Shown: positions 22,149 to 35,111 of the stretch, piece after piece
How positions within the stretch are numbered: the stretch's first letter is position 1
How the letters are laid out: the number at the start of each line of letters is the position of its first letter
Assembly (NCBI RefSeq): GCF_034043515.1
Contig: NZ_CP138214.1
Location: forward strand, 434,001-498,000
From: Pseudomonas sp. MUP55
GTDB taxonomy: Bacteria > Pseudomonadota > Gammaproteobacteria > Pseudomonadales > Pseudomonadaceae
DNA: 64,000 bases
Direction of reading: 5' to 3'
Program-made: the position numbers and the translations under genes
The notes under the pieces: generated by a model
Told to the model about the DNA's origin: nothing
Seen by the model: the letters and a program-made list of their open reading frames with translations, nothing else
Database searches by the model: none

Positions 22149-22219
22149 TAAAGATGTGTGCGTAAGACCTTTCTTTGCACCATCAGTGTCCGCGCATCGA
22201 TCGCCGAGGAGTCCTAGCT

Positions 22220-23890
22220 GTGACCAAGCCTACAAAATACCGTGACGTCGAAATCCGCGCCGCCCGCGGTAACAAGCTCACCGCCAAAAGCTGGCTGACT
22301 GAAGCGCCGCTGCGCATGCTGATGAACAACCTCGACCCGCAAGTGGCCGAGAACCCGAAAGAGCTGGTGGTGTACGGCGGTATCGGCCGTGCCGCGCGCA
22401 ACTGGGAGTGCTACGACCAGATCGTCGAGAGCCTTACCAATCTCAATGATGATGAAACCCTGCTGGTGCAATCCGGCAAGCCGGTGGGCGTGTTCAAGAC
22501 CCACAGCAATGCGCCGCGCGTACTGATCGCCAACTCCAACCTGGTGCCGCACTGGGCCAGTTGGGAACACTTCAATGAACTGGATGCCAAGGGCCTGGCC
22601 ATGTACGGCCAGATGACCGCTGGCAGCTGGATCTACATCGGCAGCCAGGGCATCGTGCAGGGCACTTACGAAACCTTCGTCGAAGCCGGCCGCCAGCATT
22701 ACAACAGCGACCTCACTGGCCGCTGGGTGCTCACCGCAGGCCTGGGCGGTATGGGTGGCGCGCAGCCACTGGCCGCAACCCTGGCGGGCGCTTGCTCGCT
22801 GAACATCGAATGCCAGCAGGTCAGCATCGACTTCCGCCTGAACAGCCGCTACGTCGACGAGCAGGCCACCGACCTCGATGACGCCCTGGCGCGCATCGCC
22901 AAGTACACCCAGGAAGGCAAGGCGATCTCCATCGCGCTGCTGGGTAACGCGGCCGAAATCCTGCCGGAACTGGTCAAACGTGGCGTGCGCCCGGACATGG
23001 TCACCGACCAGACCAGCGCCCATGACCCGCTCAACGGCTACCTGCCGGCCGGCTGGACCTGGGACGAGTACCGCGCCCGCGCCAAGACCGAACCCGCCGC
23101 CGTGATCAAGGCCGCCAAGCAGTCGATGGCCGTGCACGTCAAAGCCATGCTCGAGTTCCAGAAGCAAGGCATCCCGACCTTCGACTACGGTAACAACATC
23201 CGCCAGATGGCCCAGGAAGAGGGCGTGGAAAACGCCTTCGATTTCCCTGGCTTCGTACCGGCCTACATTCGCCCGCTGTTCTGCCGTGGCATCGGCCCGT
23301 TCCGCTGGGCTGCGCTGTCGGGCGACCCGCAAGACATCTACAAGACTGACGCCAAAGTCAAAGAGCTGATCCCCGACGACGCCCACTTGCACAACTGGTT
23401 GGACATGGCGCGTGAGCGCATCAGCTTCCAGGGTTTGCCGGCGCGTATCTGCTGGGTGGGCCTGGGCCAGCGCGCCAAGCTCGGCCTGGCGTTCAACGAA
23501 ATGGTGCGCAGCGGCGAGCTGTCCGCCCCGGTGGTTATCGGCCGCGATCACCTCGATTCCGGCTCGGTAGCCAGCCCGAACCGTGAAACCGAAGCCATGC
23601 AGGACGGCTCCGACGCCGTGTCCGACTGGCCGCTGCTCAACGCCTTGCTCAACACCGCGAGCGGCGCGACCTGGGTTTCGCTGCACCACGGCGGCGGCGT
23701 GGGCATGGGCTTCTCCCAGCACTCGGGCATGGTGATCGTGTGTGACGGTACCGACGAAGCGGCCGAGCGCATTGCGCGGGTGCTGCATAACGACCCGGCG
23801 ACGGGGGTGATGCGTCATGCGGATGCCGGTTATCAGATCGCTATCGATTGCGCCAAGGAACAGGGCCTCAACCTGCCAATGATCAAGTAA
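22220..23890 (+). CDS. hutU: Urocanate hydratase
   Basis: Urocanase adds water to urocanate to give imidazolonepropionate, using NAD+ as a tightly bound electrophile. The 556-residue length is standard. The NAD-binding stretch [18 protein letters not shown] lies near residue 176, and the family segment [16 protein letters not shown] is near residue 355. The GTG start at 22220 is preceded by GAGGAG; a longer in-frame start at 22175 has no ribosome site. Confidence 0.98.
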
Positions 23891-24030: not shown

Positions 24031-25491
24031 ATGGCTGCAAACGACACCACCCCGTTGATTGAAAGGCGTTCGATCGACTACATCCCGGAAGCGGAAAGAC
24101 ACGGTCGTCTATTGAGCCAGTTCACCCTGTGGCTGGGTGCCAACCTGCAGATCACCGCCATTGTCACCGGGGCCCTGGCCGTGGTGCTGGGCGGGGATGT
24201 GTTCTGGTCGTTGATCGGTCTGTTGATCGGTCAATTGCTGGGCGGCGGGGTGATGGCGTTGCACGCGGCGCAGGGGCCCAAGCTTGGCCTGCCGCAGATG
24301 ATTTCCAGCCGGGTGCAGTTCGGCGTGTATGGCGCGGCCATCCCGATCGTGCTGGTGTGCCTGATGTACCTGGGTTTCACCGCAACCGGCACGGTATTGT
24401 CCGGGCAGGCGCTGGGCCAGTTGTTCGGGGTCAGCGACAGCGTCGGCATCCTGATTTTCGCCAGTGTCATCGTGCTGGTCACGGTGCTCGGTTATCGGGT
24501 GATCCACTTCATTGGTCGCGTCGCCAGCGTCATTGGCGTGATCGCCTTCGTCTACCTGTTCAGTCGCTTGATGGGCCAGGCTGACATTGGCGCACTGCTG
24601 CAGATCCGCCATTTCAGCTGGAGCAGCTTCTTGCTCGCGGTCTCGCTGGCGGCTTCCTGGCAGATCGCGTTCGGGCCCTATGTGGCGGACTACTCGCGTT
24701 ACTTGCCGAGCAGCACCTCCTCGGTGAAAACCTTTCTGGCCGCTGGCGCAGGCTCGGTCATCGGCGCGCAGGTGGCGATGATTCTCGGTGTGTTTGCCGC
24801 CGCCATGGCCAACGGGCAATTCGCCGGGCACGAAGTGGCCTACATCGTCGGCCTGAGCGGCAGCGGCGCCGCGGCCGCGTTGCTGTACTTCAGCATCGCG
24901 TTCGGCAAGGTCACAATTTCCACGCTGAACTCCTACGGCAGCTTCATGTGCATTGCCACCATCATCAGCGGCTTCCAGGGTCACCTGCGGGTATCGCGCC
25001 TGCAGCGCCTGCTGTTCGTACTGGCGATCGTCGGCACGGCCACCCTGATCGCACTGCTCGGCCAGCACTCGTTCCTGGGCGCGTTCAAGTCGTTCATCCT
25101 GTTCCTGCTGGCGTTCTTCACGCCCTGGAGCGCGATCAACCTGGTGGATTACTACTGCATCACACGCGAGCGCTATGACGTGCCGGCGCTGGCTGACCCC
25201 AAGGGTCGCTATGGCCGCTGGAACCCTCTGGGCATCAGCGTCTATGTGTTCGGTGTGCTGGTGCAACTGCCTTTCATCTCCACCAAGTTTTATACCGGCC
25301 CATTGGTGGAAACCCTGGGTGGCGTGGACATCTCCTGGATCATCGGCCTGGTGTTGCCGGCGGCCCTGTATTACCTGTGCGCGAAAAAATGGCACGGCAC
25401 GATGCCCAATCAACTGATCCTGCCGGTCGAGCAGGACAGCGTTGTACCCACGCAAACAAGCGGGACCGGTCGCGCTGCGGCGCAGGCCTGA
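24031..25491 (+). CDS. NCS1-family permease, likely urocanate/histidine-pathway transporter
   Basis: The 486-residue protein has about 12 hydrophobic segments and the cytosine/purine permease pattern, including LWLGANLQITAIVTGALAVV near residue 34 and SWQIAFGPYVADYSRYLP near residue 210, where NCS1 proteins bind substrate. Its place directly after hutU makes a hut substrate likely; a permease at this position in P. fluorescens has been described as urocanate-specific. The substrate here is inferred from context. Another possibility is a nucleobase permease. Confidence 0.85.
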   Translation: MAANDTTPLIERRSIDYIPEAERHGRLLSQFTLWLGANLQITAIVTGALAVVLGGDVFWSLIGLLIGQLLGGGVMALHAAQGPKLGLPQMISSRVQFGVYGAAIPIVLVCLMYLGFTATGTVLSGQALGQLFGVSDSVGILIFASVIVLVTVLGYRVIHFIGRVASVIGVIAFVYLFSRLMGQADIGALLQIRHFSWSSFLLAVSLAASWQIAFGPYVADYSRYLPSSTSSVKTFLAAGAGSVIGAQVAMILGVFAAAMANGQFAGHEVAYIVGLSGSGAAAALLYFSIAFGKVTISTLNSYGSFMCIATIISGFQGHLRVSRLQRLLFVLAIVGTATLIALLGQHSFLGAFKSFILFLLAFFTPWSAINLVDYYCITRERYDVPALADPKGRYGRWNPLGISVYVFGVLVQLPFISTKFYTGPLVETLGGVDISWIIGLVLPAALYYLCAKKWHGTMPNQLILPVEQDSVVPTQTSGTGRAAAQA

Positions 25492-25559: not shown

Positions 25560-26525
25560 ATGAAAATGCATAAGACTCTGCTGACCCCGCTGCTTTGCGC
25601 TGGCTTGCTGGCAAGCGCCGGCGCCCAGGCGGCCGGCTGGTGCGAATCCGGTAAGCCGGTGAAGTTCGCCGGGCTGAATTGGGAAAGCGGCATGTTGCTC
25701 ACCGACATCCTGCAAACCGTGCTGGAAAAAGGCTACGACTGCAAAACCGACAGCCTGCCGGGTAACTCCATCACCATGGAAAACGCCCTGAGCAGCAACG
25801 ACATCCAGGTGTTCGCCGAAGAGTGGGTCGGGCGCAGCGAGGTCTGGAACAAGGCCGAGAAGGCCGGCAAGGTCGTCGGCGTCGGCGCCCCTGTCGTGGG
25901 CGCCATCGAAGGCTGGTACGTGCCGCGCTACGTGATCGAAGGCGATGCCAAGCGCAAGCTGGAAGCCAAGGCCCCGGACCTGAAAAATATTGCGGACCTG
26001 GCCAAGTACGCCGCGGTGTTCAAGGACCAGGAAGAACCCTCCAAGGGCCGCTTCTACAACTGCCCGGCCGGCTGGACCTGTGAACTGGACAACAGCGAAA
26101 TGCTGAAAAGCTACGGCCTGGAAAGCAGCTACACCAACTTCCGCCCCGGTACCGGCCCGGCGCTGGATGCTGCGGTGCTGTCGAGCTACAAGCGCGGCGA
26201 GCCGATCCTGTTCTACTACTGGTCGCCGACGCCGCTGATGGGCCAGGTCGACCTGGTCAAGCTCGAAGAAAAACCGGGCGTGGATAAAAGCGTGAGCATC
26301 AAGGTCGGCCTGTCCAAGACCTTCCACGAGCAAGCGCCGGAACTGGTAGCCGTGCTGGAAAAGGTCAATCTGCCCATCGACCTGCTGAATCAGAACCTTG
26401 GCCGCATGGCCAAAGAGCGAATCGAGTCGCCGAAACTGGCGAAAATTTTCCTCAAGGAACATCCTGAAGTCTGGCACGCCTGGGTGAGCGACGACGCAGC
26501 CAAGAAAATCGACGCGGCCTTGTAG
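25560..26525 (+). CDS. hutX: HutX, ABC transporter substrate-binding protein (ProX/OpuAC type)
   Basis: This periplasmic binding protein of 321 residues delivers histidine to HutWV. A signal peptide (MKMHKTLLTPLLCAGLLASA ending near GAQA) precedes a glycine-betaine-type binding fold with Trp-rich segments such as EEWVGRSEVWNKA and YYWSPTPLMG. A Cys pair in FYNCPAGWTC could form a disulfide. The ATG at 25560 follows GGGAG. The histidine substrate is assigned from the locus and from P. fluorescens HutXWV, not from the sequence alone; a quaternary amine is the alternative. Confidence 0.88.
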   Translation: MKMHKTLLTPLLCAGLLASAGAQAAGWCESGKPVKFAGLNWESGMLLTDILQTVLEKGYDCKTDSLPGNSITMENALSSNDIQVFAEEWVGRSEVWNKAEKAGKVVGVGAPVVGAIEGWYVPRYVIEGDAKRKLEAKAPDLKNIADLAKYAAVFKDQEEPSKGRFYNCPAGWTCELDNSEMLKSYGLESSYTNFRPGTGPALDAAVLSSYKRGEPILFYYWSPTPLMGQVDLVKLEEKPGVDKSVSIKVGLSKTFHEQAPELVAVLEKVNLPIDLLNQNLGRMAKERIESPKLAKIFLKEHPEVWHAWVSDDAAKKIDAAL

Positions 26526-26562: not shown

Positions 26563-26596
26563 GCCTGGCCTCAACCCATTGGATCGAGAGCACGCT

Positions 26597-27444
26597 ATGT
26601 TTCCTGAGAGTTTTACGTTTTCCATCGCCGACTGGGTCAACGGTTGGGTGGACTCGCTGGTCACCAACTACGGCGACGTGTTCCGGCACATTTCCGACAC
26701 CCTGCTATGGGCCATCGTCAACCTGGAAGGCCTGCTGCGCGCCGCTCCCTGGTGGCTGATGCTGGCCATCGTTGGGGTCATCGCCTGGCACGCCACCCGC
26801 AAGGTGGTGACCACGGTCGTGATCGTCGGTTTGCTGTTCCTCGTCGGCGCGGTTGGCCTGTGGGACAAACTGATGCAGACCCTGGCGCTGATGATGGTCG
26901 CCACGGTGATCTCGGTGCTGATCGGCATCCCGTTGGGCATCCTTTCCGCGCGCAGCAATCGCTTGCGTTCGGTGCTGATGCCGTTGCTCGACATCATGCA
27001 AACCATGCCCAGCTTCGTGTATCTGATCCCGGTGCTGATGCTGTTCGGCCTGGGCAAGGTACCGGCGATTTTCGCCACGGTGATTTACGCCGCGCCGCCG
27101 CTGATTCGCCTGACTGACCTGGGCATCCGCCAGGTCGACGGCGAAGTCATGGAGGCCATCAACGCCTTCGGCGCCAACCGCTGGCAGCAGCTGTTCGGCG
27201 TGCAACTGCCGTTGGCGCTGCCCAGCATCATGGCGGGTATCAACCAGACCACCATGATGGCGTTGTCGATGGTGGTGATCGCCTCGATGATCGGCGCCCG
27301 TGGCTTGGGTGAAGACGTGCTCGTCGGCATCCAGACCCTCAACGTCGGCCGCGGCCTCGAAGCCGGGCTGGCGATCGTGATTCTCGCCGTGGTCATCGAC
27401 CGCATTACCCAGGCCTATGGTCGTCCACGGCATGAGGCGAGCAA

Positions 27445-27448
<4 letters not shown>
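26597..27448 (+). CDS. hutW: HutW, ABC transporter permease (ProW type)
   Basis: The 283-residue inner-membrane protein has an N-terminal amphipathic region, about six membrane segments, and the permease coupling motif in [20 protein letters not shown] (about residues 185-204). It pairs with HutX and HutV in the histidine uptake ABC system. The ATG at 26597 follows GAGAG; an in-frame TTG six codons earlier is less likely. It overlaps hutV by four bases. Confidence 0.9.
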
Positions 27449-28269
<821 letters not shown>

Positions 28270-28290
28270 TTCGGATGTTGTGGTAAGGCT

Positions 28291-28380
28291 GCCGGCCTCA
28301 TCGGGGGCAAGCCCCCTCCCACCTTTGAAGGTGTTCACAGTTCAAAATGTGGGAGGGGGCTTGCCCCCGATAGGGCCGGT
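28291..28380. repeat. Class A REPIN, opposite arrangement, after hutV
   Basis: GCCGGCCTCATCGGGGGCAA comes first and GGCTTGCCCCCGATAGGGCC second, so outer GGCC bases also pair. It separates the ABC transporter genes from the MIO-less histidase paralogue. Confidence 0.88.
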
Positions 28381-28412
28381 AAAGCTGCACAAAAATTAAA
28401 GAAGGTACACAG

Positions 28413-29921
28413 ATGCCCCAGGCAACACCCATCATCATCGCCGACGTTCCACTGCGCTGGCGGGACATAGTCGCCGTCGCTCGCCACGGCGCAGTGCTCG
28501 AACTCTCGGGCCACGCCTGGGCGCGCATCGACAATGCCCAGGCCATCGTGCAGTGCATCGTCGCCAGCGGGGAGCGCGCCTATGGCGTGAACACCGGCCT
28601 GGGCGCGCTGTGCAATGTTTCGCTCAAGGGCGAACAACTGAGCCAGTTGTCGCGCAACACCTTGCTGAGCCACGCCTGCGGTGTCGGCCCTGCGTTGAGC
28701 GACGAGCAGACCCGCGCGATCATCTGCGCCGCCATCATCAACTACAGCCACGGCAAATCCGGCCTGCACCCCCAAGTGGTACAGGCGCTGCTGGCGCTGC
28801 TCAACCACGGCATCACGCCCCAGGTACCGTCCCAGGGTTCGGTCGGTTACCTGACCCACATGGCCCATGTCGGCGTGGCGCTGCTTGGCGTGGGCAATGT
28901 CAGCTATCGCGGCCAGGTTGTGCCGGCGCAAGTGGCGCTGGCTGCCGAAGGTTTGCAGCCGGTGGTGCTCGGCGCCAAGGATGGCCTGTGCCTGGTCAAC
29001 GGTACGCCGTGCATGACTGGCCTGAGCTGCCTGGCCCTGGCCGATGCGCACCACTTGCTGGAATGGGCCGACGTGATCGGTGCCATGAGCTTCGAAGCCC
29101 AGCGCGGCCAGATCGATGCGTTCGACGCAGAGATCATCGCCCTCAAGCCCCATGCGGGCATGCAGCAGGTCGGTCGGCATCTGCGTGCCTTGCTCGACGG
29201 CAGTGAGGTGATCGCCAGCAGCCACGGCATTCGCACCCAGGACGCCTTGAGCCTGCGCTCGATCCCGCAGATCCACGGCGCGGCGCGTGATCAGCTGGAG
29301 CACGCTACCCGTCAGATCGAGACCGAACTCAACAGCGTCACGGACAACCCGCTGGTGCTCGGTACCCCGGAGCATTACCGCGTGGTGTCCCAGGCCAACC
29401 CCCACGGGCAGTCGGTGGCGCTGGCCGCCGACCTGCTCGCCATCGCCATGGCCGAAATCGGCTCGGTGGCCGAACGCCGCCTGGACCGCCTGATCAACCC
29501 GCACGTCAGCGGCCTGCCGGCGTTCCTGGTGAGCAACCCCGGGGTCAACTCCGGAATGATGATCGTGCAGTACGTCGCTGCGTCGTTGTGCGGGCAGAAC
29601 CGCCAATTGGCGCAACCGGCGGTGCTCGACAATTTCGTCACCTCGGGCCTGCAGGAAGACCACCTGAGCATGGGCACCAACGCCGCGCTCAAGCTGCACC
29701 AGGTACTGACCAACGTTACCCAGATTCTGGCCATCGAATACTTGCTGGCAGCCCAGGCGTTCGAGTTCCTCAAGAGCCAGCGCTTCGGCGTCGGCACCGA
29801 CCGCGCCTGGCGCTTGCTGCGCGAGAAGGTACCGGCCTATGAGCAGGACCGCTGGCTGGCGCCGGACATCGCGGCGGCGGCCGAGCTGCTCAAGCACACC
29901 GCAACACCGAACGTGCACTGA
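28413..29921 (+). CDS. Histidase-family paralogue lacking the MIO triad
   Basis: The 502-residue protein is clearly related to histidine ammonia-lyase across its length. Normal enzymes form the MIO electrophile from Ala-Ser-Gly in [14 protein letters not shown]. Here the segment reads GSVGYLTHMAHVG: one Tyr (residue 146) stands in place of ASGD. Compared with hutH next door, the catalytic Tyr of QDPYSLR is Leu (QDALSLR) and the Phe of GGNFH is Pro (QANPH). Conserved are YGVNTGLG, LLSHACGVG, the Asn of LVNGT, the Gln of QDALSLR and QEDHLSM. The frame is intact with normal codon use, so it is not a decayed gene. It probably binds a histidine-like ligand or pairs with HutH, or catalyses a different reaction; deamination by the MIO mechanism is unlikely. 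Confidence 0.9.
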   Translation: MPQATPIIIADVPLRWRDIVAVARHGAVLELSGHAWARIDNAQAIVQCIVASGERAYGVNTGLGALCNVSLKGEQLSQLSRNTLLSHACGVGPALSDEQTRAIICAAIINYSHGKSGLHPQVVQALLALLNHGITPQVPSQGSVGYLTHMAHVGVALLGVGNVSYRGQVVPAQVALAAEGLQPVVLGAKDGLCLVNGTPCMTGLSCLALADAHHLLEWADVIGAMSFEAQRGQIDAFDAEIIALKPHAGMQQVGRHLRALLDGSEVIASSHGIRTQDALSLRSIPQIHGAARDQLEHATRQIETELNSVTDNPLVLGTPEHYRVVSQANPHGQSVALAADLLAIAMAEIGSVAERRLDRLINPHVSGLPAFLVSNPGVNSGMMIVQYVAASLCGQNRQLAQPAVLDNFVTSGLQEDHLSMGTNAALKLHQVLTNVTQILAIEYLLAAQAFEFLKSQRFGVGTDRAWRLLREKVPAYEQDRWLAPDIAAAAELLKHTATPNVH

Positions 29922-29960
29922 ATACCTATTCAAAAAGAACAATTCACAAGGAGAACGAAT

Positions 29961-31493
29961 GTGACTGCGCTAAACCTGATTCCAGGCCAACTGAGCCTCG
30001 CCCAACTGCGGGCCATCTACCAGCAGCCGGTAACCCTCAGTCTGGATGACAGCGCCACGGCGCAGATCGACGCCAGTGTGGCCTGTGTGGAACAGATTCT
30101 CGCCGAGAACCGCACCGCGTATGGCATCAACACCGGTTTCGGCCTGCTGGCCTCGACCCGTATCGCAAGTGTTGACCTGGAAAACCTCCAGCGTTCACTG
30201 GTGCTGTCCCACGCCGCCGGTGTGGGTGATCCGATCAGCGATGCGCTGGTGCGGCTGGTCATGGTGCTCAAGGTCAACAGCCTGAGCCGTGGGTTCTCCG
30301 GGATCCGTCGGCAAGTGATCGACGCGCTGATCGCCCTGATCAACGCCGAGGTGTATCCGCATATTCCGCTCAAGGGCTCGGTCGGTGCCTCCGGTGACCT
30401 GGCGCCGCTGGCCCATATGTCCCTGGTGCTGCTCGGTGAAGGCAAGGCGCGTTACAAGGGTGAGTGGCTCTCGGCAACCGAAGCGCTGAAAGTGGCTGGC
30501 CTCACGCCGCTGACCCTCGCCGCCAAGGAAGGCCTGGCCCTGCTCAACGGCACCCAGGTGTCCACCGCCTATGCCTTGCGCGGCCTGTTCGAAGGTGAAG
30601 ACCTGTTTGCCGGCGCCCTCGCCTGCGGTGCCCTGACCGTGGAAGCGGTGCTCGGCTCGCGCTCGCCCTTCGACGCACGGATTCATGCCGCACGCGGCCA
30701 GCGTGGGCAGATCGATGCGGCGGCGGCCTATCGTGACCTGCTCGGCGAAAGCAGCCAGGTGTCCCAGTCGCACCAGAACTGCGACAAGGTGCAAGACCCG
30801 TACTCCCTGCGCTGCCAGCCGCAAGTGATGGGGGCCTGCCTGACCCAGTTCCGCCAGGCCGCTGAAGTGCTGGTGGTGGAAGCCAACGCGGTGTCGGATA
30901 ACCCGCTGGTGTTCGCCGCTGAAGGCGATGTGATTTCCGGCGGTAACTTCCACGCCGAGCCTGTGGCCATGGCCGCAGACAACATGGCCCTGGCCATCGC
31001 CGAAATCGGCTCGCTCAGTGAGCGCCGTATCTCGTTGATGATGGACAAGCACATGTCGCAATTACCACCATTCCTGGTGGGCAATGGCGGGGTCAACTCC
31101 GGTTTCATGATCGCCCAGGTGACAGCCGCGGCGCTCGCCAGCGAGAACAAGGCACTGGCCCACCCCCACAGCGTCGACAGCCTGCCAACGTCGGCCAACC
31201 AGGAAGACCACGTGTCGATGGCCCCGGCTGCGGGCAAGCGCCTGTGGGAAATGGCCGAGAACACCCGGGGTGTGCTCGCGGTGGAGTGGCTCGCCGCCTG
31301 CCAGGGCTTGGACCTGCGCGACGGCCTGAAAACCTCGGCGAAGCTGGAAAAAGCCCGTGGGCTGCTGCGCGACAAGGTAGCGTTCTACGAGAAAGACCGC
31401 TTCTTCGCCCCGGACATCAACGCCGCCAGCGAACTGCTCGCCAGCCGCTGCCTGAATGAGCTGGTGCCGGCCAAGCTGTTGCCGAGTCTGTAA
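29961..31493 (+). CDS. hutH: Histidine ammonia-lyase
   Basis: HutH deaminates histidine to urocanate. The 510-residue protein has the complete MIO triad Ala143-Ser144-Gly145 in [15 protein letters not shown]. Active-site motifs are present: [38 protein letters not shown] and QEDHVSM. The start is GTG at 29961 after AAGGAG; the ATG two bases earlier is in another frame and stops at once. It lies 39 bases after the MIO-less paralogue, and the two are probably cotranscribed. Confidence 0.98.
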
Positions 31494-31668: not shown

Positions 31669-33078
31669 ATGCACCAGCAAGAAACAGGTTTGAAACGCGG
31701 GCTCAACGCCCGACATATTCGCTTCATGGCCCTCGGTTCCGCGATCGGTACCGGGCTGTTCTATGGCTCCGCCTCAGCCATCCAGATGGCCGGCCCCGCT
31801 GTGCTGCTGGCCTACCTGATCGGCGGCGCCGCTGTATTCATGGTGATGCGCGCCCTCGGCGAGATGGCTGTGCACAACCCCGTGTCCGGCTCGTTCGGCC
31901 AGTACGCCGGCACCTACCTGGGGCCCATGGCCGGGTTTATCCTCGGCTGGACCTACGCCTTTGAAATGATCATCGTCTGCCTCGCCGACGTCACCGCGTT
32001 CGGCATCTATATGGGCTTCTGGTTTCCCGAGGTGGCGCGTTGGGTCTGGGTGCTCGGCATTGTGTTTCTGATCGGCGGCCTGAACCTGTGCAACGTCAAA
32101 GTGTTTGGCGAGATGGAGTTCTGGCTGTCGCTGCTCAAGGTCGGGGCGATTGTCGCGATGATCCTCGGCGGTTTCGGCATCATGCTCTTCGGTATTCATT
32201 CGGCCGGTGAAACCCAGGCCGCTGGTTTGAGCAATCTGTGGGCGCACGGCGGTTTCATGCCCAACGGCATTGGCGGCCTGATCGCATCCTTCGCCGTGGT
32301 GATGTTTGCCTTCGGTGGCATCGAAATCATCGGCATCACCGCCGGCGAAGCCAAGGACCCGCAGCGCGTGATCCCCAAGGCGATCAACGCCGTGCCGCTG
32401 CGCATCCTGCTGTTCTACGTGCTGACCCTGTTCGTGCTGATGGCGATCTACCCATGGCCGCAGATCGGCAGCCAGGGCAGCCCGTTCGTGCAGATCTTCA
32501 GTAACCTGGGTATCGGCTCGGCGGCGACCATCCTCAATATCGTGGTGATCTCGGCGGCGGTTTCGGCCATCAACAGCGACATCTTTGGCGCCGGTCGCAT
32601 GATGTACGGCCTGGCCCAGCAAGGGCAGGCGCCCAAGGGCTTCGCGCAGTTGTCCAGGCACGGCGTGCCGTGGATGACCGTGCTGGTGATGGGCGCCGCG
32701 TTGCTGGGCGGTGTGGTGCTCAACTACCTGATCCCGGAAAACGTGTTCCTGCTGATCGCGTCGATCGCTACCTTCGCCACCGTGTGGGTGTGGCTGATGA
32801 TCCTGTTTACCCAGGTCGCCATGCGCCGCTCGATGACCAAGGCGCAGGTGGCCGAACTGAAATTCCCGGTACCGTTCTGGCCCTATGCACCGGCTGCGGC
32901 CATCGTGTTCATGCTGTTCGTGTTTGGCGTGCTCGGTTACTTCCCTGACACCCAGGCGGCCTTGATGGTCGGTGCGGTCTGGATCGTGCTGCTGGTCGTT
33001 GCCTACCTGCTGTGGGTCAAACCCGCTGCAGGGCAAGCGGCCAAGGTCCATTACGAACCGGCTTTGTCTCATCGATAA
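31669..33078 (+). CDS. hutT: APC-family amino acid permease, likely histidine transporter
   Basis: The 469-residue protein has about 12 membrane segments and the amino acid/polyamine/organocation pattern: [20 protein letters not shown] with the substrate-binding GSAIGTG near residue 25, [15 protein letters not shown], and [16 protein letters not shown] near residue 210. It resembles the ProY/HutT group. The gap of 15 bases to hutI and the locus point to histidine as substrate; the sequence alone only supports an amino acid. It is a third uptake system beside the NCS1 permease and HutXWV. Confidence 0.88.
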
Positions 33079-33093: not shown

Positions 33094-34299
33094 ATGAAAA
33101 CCCTTTGGCAACACTGCCACGTCGCAACCATGGCTCATGGCAAATACTCGATCATCGAGGACGCGGCCATAGTCACCGCCGGTTCGCTCATCGAGTGGAT
33201 CGGCCCGCGCAGCCAGGTGCCGACGGCGGACTATGCCCAGGTGCATGACCTGCAAGGCGCGTGGGTCACCCCCGGGCTGATCGATTGCCACACCCACACG
33301 GTGTTCGGCGGTAACCGCAGCGGCGAATTCGAGCAGCGTCTGGAAGGCGTCAGCTATGCGGACATCGCGGCCAAGGGCGGCGGGATTGCCAGCACCGTGC
33401 GCGCTACCCGTGCGGCGACCGAAGATGAATTGTTCCTCAGCGCCGAAAAGCGCCTGCGCAGCCTGTTGTGCGACGGCGTGACCACGGTGGAGATCAAGTC
33501 CGGCTACGGCCTGGACCTGGCCAACGAGCGCAAGATGCTGCGCGTGGCGCGGCGCCTCGGGCAAGCGCTGCCGGTAAGCGTGCGCGCCACCTGCCTGGCG
33601 GCCCATGCGTTACCGCCGGAGTACCAGGACCGCGCGGATGACTACATCGAGCACATCTGCAGCGAGATGCTGCCGACCCTGGCGGCAGAGGGGCTGGTGG
33701 ACGCGGTGGATGCCTTCTGTGAATACCTGGCGTTTTCTACCGAGCAGGTGGAGCGCGTGTTCAAGGTCGCCCAAAAACTCGGCCTGCCGGTGAAACTGCA
33801 CGCCGAGCAATTGTCTTCCCTGCATGGCTCCAGCCTGGCGGCGCGCTACCACGCGTTGTCGGCGGACCATCTGGAGTTCATGACCGAAGAAGACGCCATC
33901 GCCATGGCCGCTGCCGGCACCGTCGCCGTGTTGCTGCCGGGCGCTTTCTACTTCCTGCGCGAAACCCAGTTGCCGCCGATGGAGGCCCTGCGCAAGCACG
34001 GCGTGAAGATAGCGATCGCCAGCGACCTCAACCCCGGCACCTCACCGGCCCTGTCGGTGCGCCTGATGCTGAACATGGCCTGCACCCTGTTCCGCATGAC
34101 CCCGGAAGAGGTCCTGGCCGGCGCCACGCAACATGCGGCCACTGCGCTGGGCATGGGCGATACCCATGGCTCCCTGGAAGTGGGCAAGGTCGCGGATTTT
34201 GTCGCCTGGCAGATCGATCGTCCTGCCGACCTGGCCTATTGGCTGGGCGGCGAGCTGGATAAACGCGTCGTACGCCATGGCGTCGACGTCACTGTATAA
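33094..34299 (+). CDS. hutI: Imidazolonepropionase
   Basis: HutI opens the ring of 4-imidazolone-5-propionate to give N-formimino-L-glutamate. The 401-residue amidohydrolase shows the metal motif [12 protein letters not shown] near residue 67, IKSGYGLDL, the metal-binding KLHAEQLSS, and ASDLNPGT with the catalytic Asp near residue 310. AGGGAGG lies shortly before the ATG. It is followed after 11 bases by hutG. Confidence 0.98.
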
Positions 34300-34310
34300 G
34301 GAGTCGCGTT

Positions 34311-35111
34311 GTGGATAAGGTTCTGACATTCAAACAAGGCAACACACCGCTGCTGATCAGCATGCCCCACGCCGGCCTGCGGCTGACGCCTGCGGTGCAG
34401 GCCGGGTTGATCCCCGAAGCGCAAAGCCTGCCGGACACCGACTGGCACATCCCGACCCTGTACGATTTTGCCGAAGAACTCGGCGCCAGTACCCTGGCGG
34501 CGGAGTATTCGCGGTTTGTCATCGACCTGAACCGGCCGTCGGATAACAAGCCGCTCTACGCGGGTGCCACCACCGGTCTGTACCCGGAAACGCTGTTCGA
34601 TGGCGTGCCGTTGTTCCGCGAAGGGCAGACACCGTCCGAAGCCGAGCGCGCGAGCTACCTGCAGAAAATCTGGGGGCCGTATCACCGCACACTGCAGGAG
34701 GAGCTTGCCCGCCTCAAAGCCGAGTTCGGCTACGCGTTGCTGTTCGACGCCCATTCGATCCGCTCGGTAATCCCGCATCTGTTCGACGGCAAGTTGCCGG
34801 ACTTCAACCTCGGCACCTTCAACGGCGCCGCGTGTGATCCAGGCCTGGCCAGCCAGCTCGAAGCCATCTGCGCCCAACACCCGCAGTACACTCATGTATT
34901 GGACGGACGCTTCAAGGGCGGCCATATCACCCGGCACTACGGTGACCCGGCCCAGGATATTCATGCGGTGCAGTTGGAGTTGTGCCAGAGCACTTATATG
35001 GAAGAGTTCGAGCCGTTCCGGTACCGCCCCGACCTCGCGGAGCCGACGCAGGGAGTGTTGAAACAATTGCTGCAAGCTCTGCTGGCGTGGGGGCAAACGC
35101 ATTATCGATAA
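34311..35111 (+). CDS. hutG: N-formylglutamate deformylase
   Basis: HutG hydrolyses N-formylglutamate to glutamate and formate, closing the route begun by HutF. The 266-residue protein belongs to the N-formylglutamate amidohydrolase family, with SMPHAGLRL near residue 18, DLNRPSDNK, LFDAHSIRSVIPHLF near residue 145 and GGHITRHYGDP. The start is GTG at 34311 after AAGGAG. It is the last hut gene of the rightward set. Confidence 0.97.
   Translation: MDKVLTFKQGNTPLLISMPHAGLRLTPAVQAGLIPEAQSLPDTDWHIPTLYDFAEELGASTLAAEYSRFVIDLNRPSDNKPLYAGATTGLYPETLFDGVPLFREGQTPSEAERASYLQKIWGPYHRTLQEELARLKAEFGYALLFDAHSIRSVIPHLFDGKLPDFNLGTFNGAACDPGLASQLEAICAQHPQYTHVLDGRFKGGHITRHYGDPAQDIHAVQLELCQSTYMEEFEPFRYRPDLAEPTQGVLKQLLQALLAWGQTHYR

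Follow-up and report, generated by a model that had tools for sequence, protein, structure and literature searches.

The closest described relatives of the protein considered here are histidine ammonia-lyase (histidase, HAL or HutH) and ergothionase. Ergothionase works without the 4-methylideneimidazol-5-one (MIO) group and yields trimethylamine and thiourocanic acid from ergothioneine, according to a published account (PMC13405746). We examined hutH1, which encodes a further MIO-less member of this fold, in a window of 64,000 nucleotides from Pseudomonas sp. MUP55 (contig NZ_CP138214.1, positions 434,001 to 498,000). The gene (28413..29921, + strand) encodes a histidase homologue of 502 amino acids without MIO, and is followed by hutH2 (29961..31493, + strand), an ordinary histidase with an ASGD MIO motif. 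We consider it likely, judging from residues and gene neighborhoods, that HutH1 is an MIO-independent lyase which acts on a betaine-like histidine derivative and produces urocanate.

An altered MIO site in a gene under purifying selection

hutH1 is an intact open reading frame (ORF) of 502 codons with an ATG start and without internal stops. Its MIO site has the sequence GSVGYLTHMAH, in which one Tyr stands for the Ala-Ser-Gly-Asp of HutH2, a net loss of three codons; the codons of Gly142-Ser-Val-Gly-Tyr146 lie at 28836..28850 (+ strand), in the place of the deleted triad. The position of Tyr280 in Pseudomonas putida HAL is Leu (QDALSLR for QDPYSLR; Leu279 codon at 29247..29249, + strand), that of Phe329 is Pro (QANPH for GGNFH; Pro330 codon at 29400..29402, + strand), and the motifs YGVNTG, LLSHACGVG and QEDHLSM are all retained. 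Codon use is ordinary, with a GC content at third positions (GC3) of 0.86 against 0.78-0.86, and a codon adaptation index (CAI) of 0.67 against 0.59-0.74, in nine other hut genes. An earlier note on this DNA had described the replaced triad, the two substitutions, the retained motifs, the full-length frame with normal codon use and the place of the gene between the HutXWV genes and hutH; each of these observations is confirmed, the flanking genes being hutV (end at 28269) and hutH2 (start at 29961). The protein scores just below the cut-off of the NCBI hutH equivalog TIGR01225 (537.9 versus 539.15) and above that of the subfamily NF006871 (553.7 versus 524). The genome carries three aromatic-lyase genes in all, and the third, outside the window (G000:C1:537441-538838), retains an MIO motif (ASGDLTPLSY), with Gln as residue 414.

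The altered site is a constant feature of the family. In an alignment of 106 HutH1-type rows (87 distinct sequences), the Ala-Ser-Gly triad by which MIO-dependent histidases are recognized is missing from hutH1 and from every row, and the site consists of Tyr (Tyr146 in hutH1) plus a three-residue gap. Leu occupies position 280 (P. putida HAL numbering) in 106/106 HutH1-type rows and in 6/6 ergothionase-like rows, 6s7j and five related ones, and Tyr in 58/58 HutH2 rows, 11/11 HutH3-type rows and four rows of a MIO-less GSVGYLGPEGH family, one short row being left out of these counts. Pro330 is Pro in 90 of the 106 rows and Ala in 16. Residues Y53, H83, N195, Q277, S281, R283 and E414 (HAL numbering) are invariant in all 106; all of these except S281 are residues that contact histidine in HAL structures. 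Tyr387 of hutH1 (P0001; codon at 29571..29573, + strand) is likewise Tyr in 106/106 HutH1-type rows, Val in 58/58 HutH2 rows and Lys in 6/6 ergothionase-like rows, this Lys being presumably the catalytic Lys384 of ergothionase.

Selection was estimated from pairwise ratios of nonsynonymous to synonymous substitution (dN/dS, omega) by the Nei-Gojobori method, using our own script, for 60 HutH1 loci and 39 HutH2 loci, some of the latter incomplete. Median omega was 0.082 for HutH1 versus 0.033 for HutH2 over 741 paired comparisons, and 0.21 in the dS 0.5-1 class of all HutH1 pairs. Selection on HutH1 is purifying, and weaker than on HutH2. Among the hutH1 matches listed in the search of Pseudomonas genomes we found no internal stops. 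The suggestion that hutH1 encodes a maintained protein unable to act as an MIO lyase therefore holds up, in view of the conserved deletion, the invariant pocket and an omega of ~0.08; the relaxed selection and frequent stops that were to speak against it did not appear, the latter among the matches listed.

All of the best 120 of 6565 database protein matches to hutH1 share the deletion, which indicates that it is not due to chance. A close match (E <= 1e-125) is present in 208 of 298 Pseudomonas genomes, and MIO is missing in each of the 41 among these 208 in which the site was examined. Across the phylum, 23 of 398 sampled genomes contain a match of at least 47% identity, all 23 without MIO; in both genome searches the examined matches of ~40-44% identity carry the MIO motif, a 46% match in G719 being outside the set examined for it. 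The best 120 Paraburkholderia-side and the best 120 Enterobacterales-side proteins also lack MIO, and the latter have Leu (118) or Met (2) at HAL position 280. More distant MIO-less homologues are encoded on plasmids. In Klebsiella pneumoniae (42% identity; NZ_CP092407.1) the lyase (GSVGYLIATAH) adjoins insertion-sequence genes and is part of a hut cluster that also contains hutU, hutC, HutD and a formimidoylglutamate deiminase. OpuAC-type ABC genes precede the lyase gene, and the closest relatives of their binding protein are acetylcholine-sensor, choline and ergothioneine binders (L247). In the Gram-positive Priestia megaterium (44%; NZ_CP085419.1) the order is hutU, hutI, an agmatinase family gene, two MFS carriers and the MIO-less lyase, with the motifs GSLGYLNHQAH and QDALSIR (L246). 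The public names of MIO-less hutH1 and its relatives are histidine ammonia-lyase or HAL/PAL/TAL family ammonia-lyase.

Urocanase and transporter genes in the neighborhood of hutH1

The association with urocanase is clearest in Salinicola, where hutU occurs in 7 of 18 genomes and six of these seven carry a HutH1-type gene (G732, G985, G993, G994, G998, G1000). HutH2 was found only in G994 and G1001, and the 11 genomes without hutU have neither type; these genomes are related, so that the counts are not independent, and one broken stretch of G1001 is unclassified. Five genomes (G732, G985, G993, G998, G1000) contain an operon of the order hutU-BCCT-hutH1-hutI and have no HutH2-type gene, and in them HutH1 occupies the histidase slot of the hut operon; hutG comes after hutI in L145, L231 and L232. 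Similar associations are seen where urocanase is present in several copies: G994 has two hutU genes, one adjoining HutH1 and the other in the HutH2 cluster, G138 has a hutU-hutX-hutW-hutV-hutH1 module apart from a hut cluster in which a hutU is present as well, and one of the three hutU copies of G271 lies by hutH1. Since HutH1 accompanies urocanase and not the MIO histidase, it is most simply explained as a producer of urocanate.

We also examined 47 loci of ~20 kb, picked for variety, which contain 29 HutH1-type genes. A transporter gene lies directly upstream of the HutH1-type gene in 25 of the 29, namely HutXWV in 7, an SBP_bac_3 ABC transporter in 9 and a BCCT carrier in 9. Types were set by BLAST to members checked against Pfam, and in L136 and L202 the ATPase gene was missed in ORF picking. 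The Salinicola BCCT carrier is nearest to BetP. In G271 an OprD porin gene (L137:7777-9192) lies between hutU and hutH1.

Within the window, hutU to hutG make up a series of ten hut genes, all on the + strand and spaced by -4 to 175 bases; nothing resembling a promoter or a terminator was detected from 28200 to 30050. Urocanase, the predicted next enzyme after HutH1, is encoded by hutU (22217..23890), whose start is tentative (TTG at 22175 is the first of the listed starts). It is followed by hutTu (24031..25491, a cytosine/purine family permease), hutX (25560..26525, an OpuAC-type binding protein of the glycine betaine family), hutW (26594..27448, an ABC permease with a tentative start codon) and hutV (27445..28269, an ABC ATPase). 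Downstream of hutH2 lie hutTh (31669..33078, an amino acid permease) and hutI with hutG (33094..35111, later steps of urocanate breakdown). Annotations of hutD, hutX, hutW, hutV and both permeases were checked against Pfam, and hutU, hutI, hutG, hutF and hutC are provisional labels. A urocanate transporter named hutTu has been described in P. fluorescens SBW25 (PMC8871633). The closest relatives of HutX are glycine-betaine binding proteins. Its Trp residues 41, 89, 96, 119, 172 and 221 are kept in 10/10 aligned homologues; Trp residues of HutX align with GWGCE and YTWTP of ProX and would form a cage for the ammonium group.

A candidate betaine lyase and its alternatives

Entry through betaine carriers, a fit to a histidine pocket, independence from MIO and urocanate as the product together point to hercynine (N,N,N-trimethyl-histidine), and we lean towards hercynine itself as the substrate. 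HutXWV in this strain, and in other bacteria a BCCT carrier or a different ABC transporter, would import an N-methylated histidine, most likely hercynine. HutH1 would grip the imidazole and the carboxylate with the residues that bind histidine in histidase, a base would abstract the beta-proton, and trimethylamine would depart. Because trimethylamine is already a good leaving group, the electrophilic MIO would be dispensable, as in ergothionase, and the trans-urocanate formed would feed HutU-HutI-HutF/HutG. That HutH1 is an enzyme at all, that it eliminates trimethylamine, that hercynine is its substrate, and which roles Tyr146, Tyr387 and Leu279 play, are inferences. Chances seem slightly better than even for the fuller proposal, in which HutH1 is a hercynine trimethylamine-lyase and the hut genes serve many Pseudomonas and other Pseudomonadota as a route to consume cyanobacterial or fungal histidine betaine. 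The earlier note had regarded the protein as a maintained non-lyase; the first half of that description stands, and the second is probably wrong, since ergothionase shows that this fold can act as a lyase without MIO when trimethylamine is the leaving group (PMC13405746). Of the roles that the note offered, an enzyme with another chemistry is the best fit.

Several observations weigh against this interpretation. Four of the 29 HutH1-type genes (L138, L143, L150, L233) lack a transporter gene immediately before them, and three of these loci (L138, L143, L150) contain no further hut enzyme genes. HutXWV is called a histidine uptake system in a review (PMC8871633). HutH1 has an omega about 2.5 times that of HutH2. 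It could still be that the HutH3-type MIO lyase acts as the histidase of Salinicola, as it is present in the same five genomes in which HutH1 stands in the operon, though eight other Salinicola genomes carry it without hutU. Ergothionase-like genes occur beside hut genes with a true urocanase in G732 (L145) and G994 (L234), so that urocanase linkage alone does not point to hercynine; they are absent from the other four HutH1-type Salinicola genomes, and a gene missing in four of six is not the general partner of HutH1. Grouping of HutH1 with HutH2 is not rejected by the approximately unbiased (AU) test (p 0.48), and MIO may have been lost once, in common with ergothionase, or twice. Finally, the SBP_bac_3 carriers of 9/29 loci make other N-substituted histidines possible substrates, and the one from Erwinia E602 has octopine and nopaline binders as its closest relatives, which counts against a purely quaternary substrate.

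These carriers would suit a HutH1 that forms urocanate from some other N-substituted histidine, for example a histidine opine or an N-methylhistidine. We give this little credence, since the other 16 transporter-linked loci have BCCT or OpuAC carriers and, on chemical grounds, a secondary amine would be a poor leaving group without MIO. It is also conceivable, and in our view unlikely, that HutH1 is an ergothionase or an ergothioneine sulfonate lyase, with the same chemistry on a 2-thio or 2-sulfonyl histidine betaine. The characterized MIO-less relative is indeed an ergothionase, MIO loss and Leu280 are common to both, two Salinicola hut clusters contain ergothionase-like genes, and in Shewanella a predicted histidase, which may or may not be of HutH1 type, is reportedly required for ergothioneine use. 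On the other side, HutH1 is only ~29% identical to ergothionase 6s7j, and in G680 a 50% HutU paralogue lies close to a different MIO-less gene, the combination required for an ergothioneine route. Given the invariant Tyr where 6/6 ergothionase-like rows have Lys, HutH1 is probably not an ergothionase.

A non-catalytic role, in which HutH1 binds histidine or urocanate as a sensor, carrier or regulatory partner of HutH2, HutC or the transporter, would explain why ligand residues are kept although the electrophile is gone, and HutH1 does evolve faster than HutH2. We doubt it, and the sensor and regulatory-subunit ideas of the earlier note fit worse than a MIO-independent lyase. A subunit of HutH tetramers is a poor match for a gene that lies far from hutH2 in some genomes, forms a separate module with its own hutU, and accompanies urocanase without any HutH2-type histidase in five Salinicola genomes, and the histidine-contacting residues Q277, R283 and Y53 are all retained in 106/106 rows. 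Loss of the catalytic group could also mark a drifting pseudo-enzyme without selected function; with omega at 0.08, well under 1, an invariant pocket, a conserved place in the operon and no internal stop among the matches listed, we find this scarcely credible.

Histidine betaine occurs in cyanobacteria and fungi. It is made by cyanobacteria (PMC3826126) and is the precursor of ergothioneine (PMC7653990), and a study of biocrusts, in which it was depleted in soil water and taken up by none of the isolates, concluded that it is used by other microbes (PMC4595634). If HutH1 is a hercynine lyase, hutH1 would gain a role and a possible further source of trimethylamine would be added; thousands of database sequences labelled histidase would be betaine lyases, which would correct a widespread annotation; and the aromatic-lyase fold would be seen to do without MIO when given a good leaving group. 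With hutH1 as a named gene of a model genus, the use of histidine betaine becomes testable. Our literature search, in the journals that it covered, found no paper that assigns hercynine breakdown to hutH1 or to any enzyme.

Comparison with known lyases

HutH1-type rows form one clade (support of 99 in the Shimodaira-Hasegawa-like approximate likelihood ratio test, SH-aLRT), and in the trees the MIO-less rows all fall on the same side (SH-aLRT 87 and 91). Topology tests were run on a subset of 35 rows that excluded L185_9077, a very long row. A grouping of HutH1 with the GYLGPE family is not rejected (AU p 0.66), and the tree constrained in this way scored above the free tree, which means that the free search was not optimal. 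This second MIO-less family (GSVGYLGPEGH, with Tyr280 kept) is represented by L152:8863-10404 and L153:8455-10023 and also in L044 and L051; the L152 gene is preceded by genes for a Rieske oxygenase of the VanA type with its reductase and for an ABC transporter of the SBP_bac_3 type, and the family may act on a further betaine or N-methyl compound. MIO-less genes of the ergothionase-like kind (motif GSLGAADLAQ or close to it, Leu280, Lys at 387) were seen at L145:5010-6545, L186:9301-10950, L187:9226-10881 and L188:8891, and those of L145 and L186 adjoin OpuAC binding-protein genes. A distant MIO-less lyase at L185:9077-10654 has a 50% HutU paralogue near it (L185:15072), and the pair perhaps represents an ergothioneine pathway with a thiourocanate hydratase.

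In name and in the arrangement hutTu-hutXWV-hutH1 the gene resembles hutH1 of P. fluorescens SBW25, a likeness by description and not by sequence; the passages of that account that were consulted do not speak of an absent MIO or of a function with betaines (PMC8871633). hutH1 is known by its gene name, and what is new is the predicted substrate for a putative MIO-free betaine lyase of the ergothionase type. With HutH (P. putida HAL 1b8f/1gkm; HutH2 in the window) the protein shares the ligand residues and the place in the hut operon, and it is 39% identical to HutH2. It differs in having no Ala-Ser-Gly, and hence no MIO, and in the replacement of Tyr280 by Leu and of Phe329 by Pro. Ergothionase, found among the relatives of hutH1 in a PDB search (Treponema denticola, 6s7j/6s7q; also reported from Burkholderia and Agrobacterium radiobacter), is, like HutH1, a MIO-less member of the aromatic-lyase family, with Leu in place of HAL Tyr280 (QDPLSFR in 6s7j) and with Y53, H83, Q277, R283 and E414 kept. 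The two differ in overall sequence, in the loop at the MIO site (SSIGEGD in 6s7j, with EGD where HutH1 has a single Tyr), in Ser at N195 and in Lys where HutH1 has Tyr387. By these comparisons HutH1 appears to be like ergothionase in kind and unlike it in detail.
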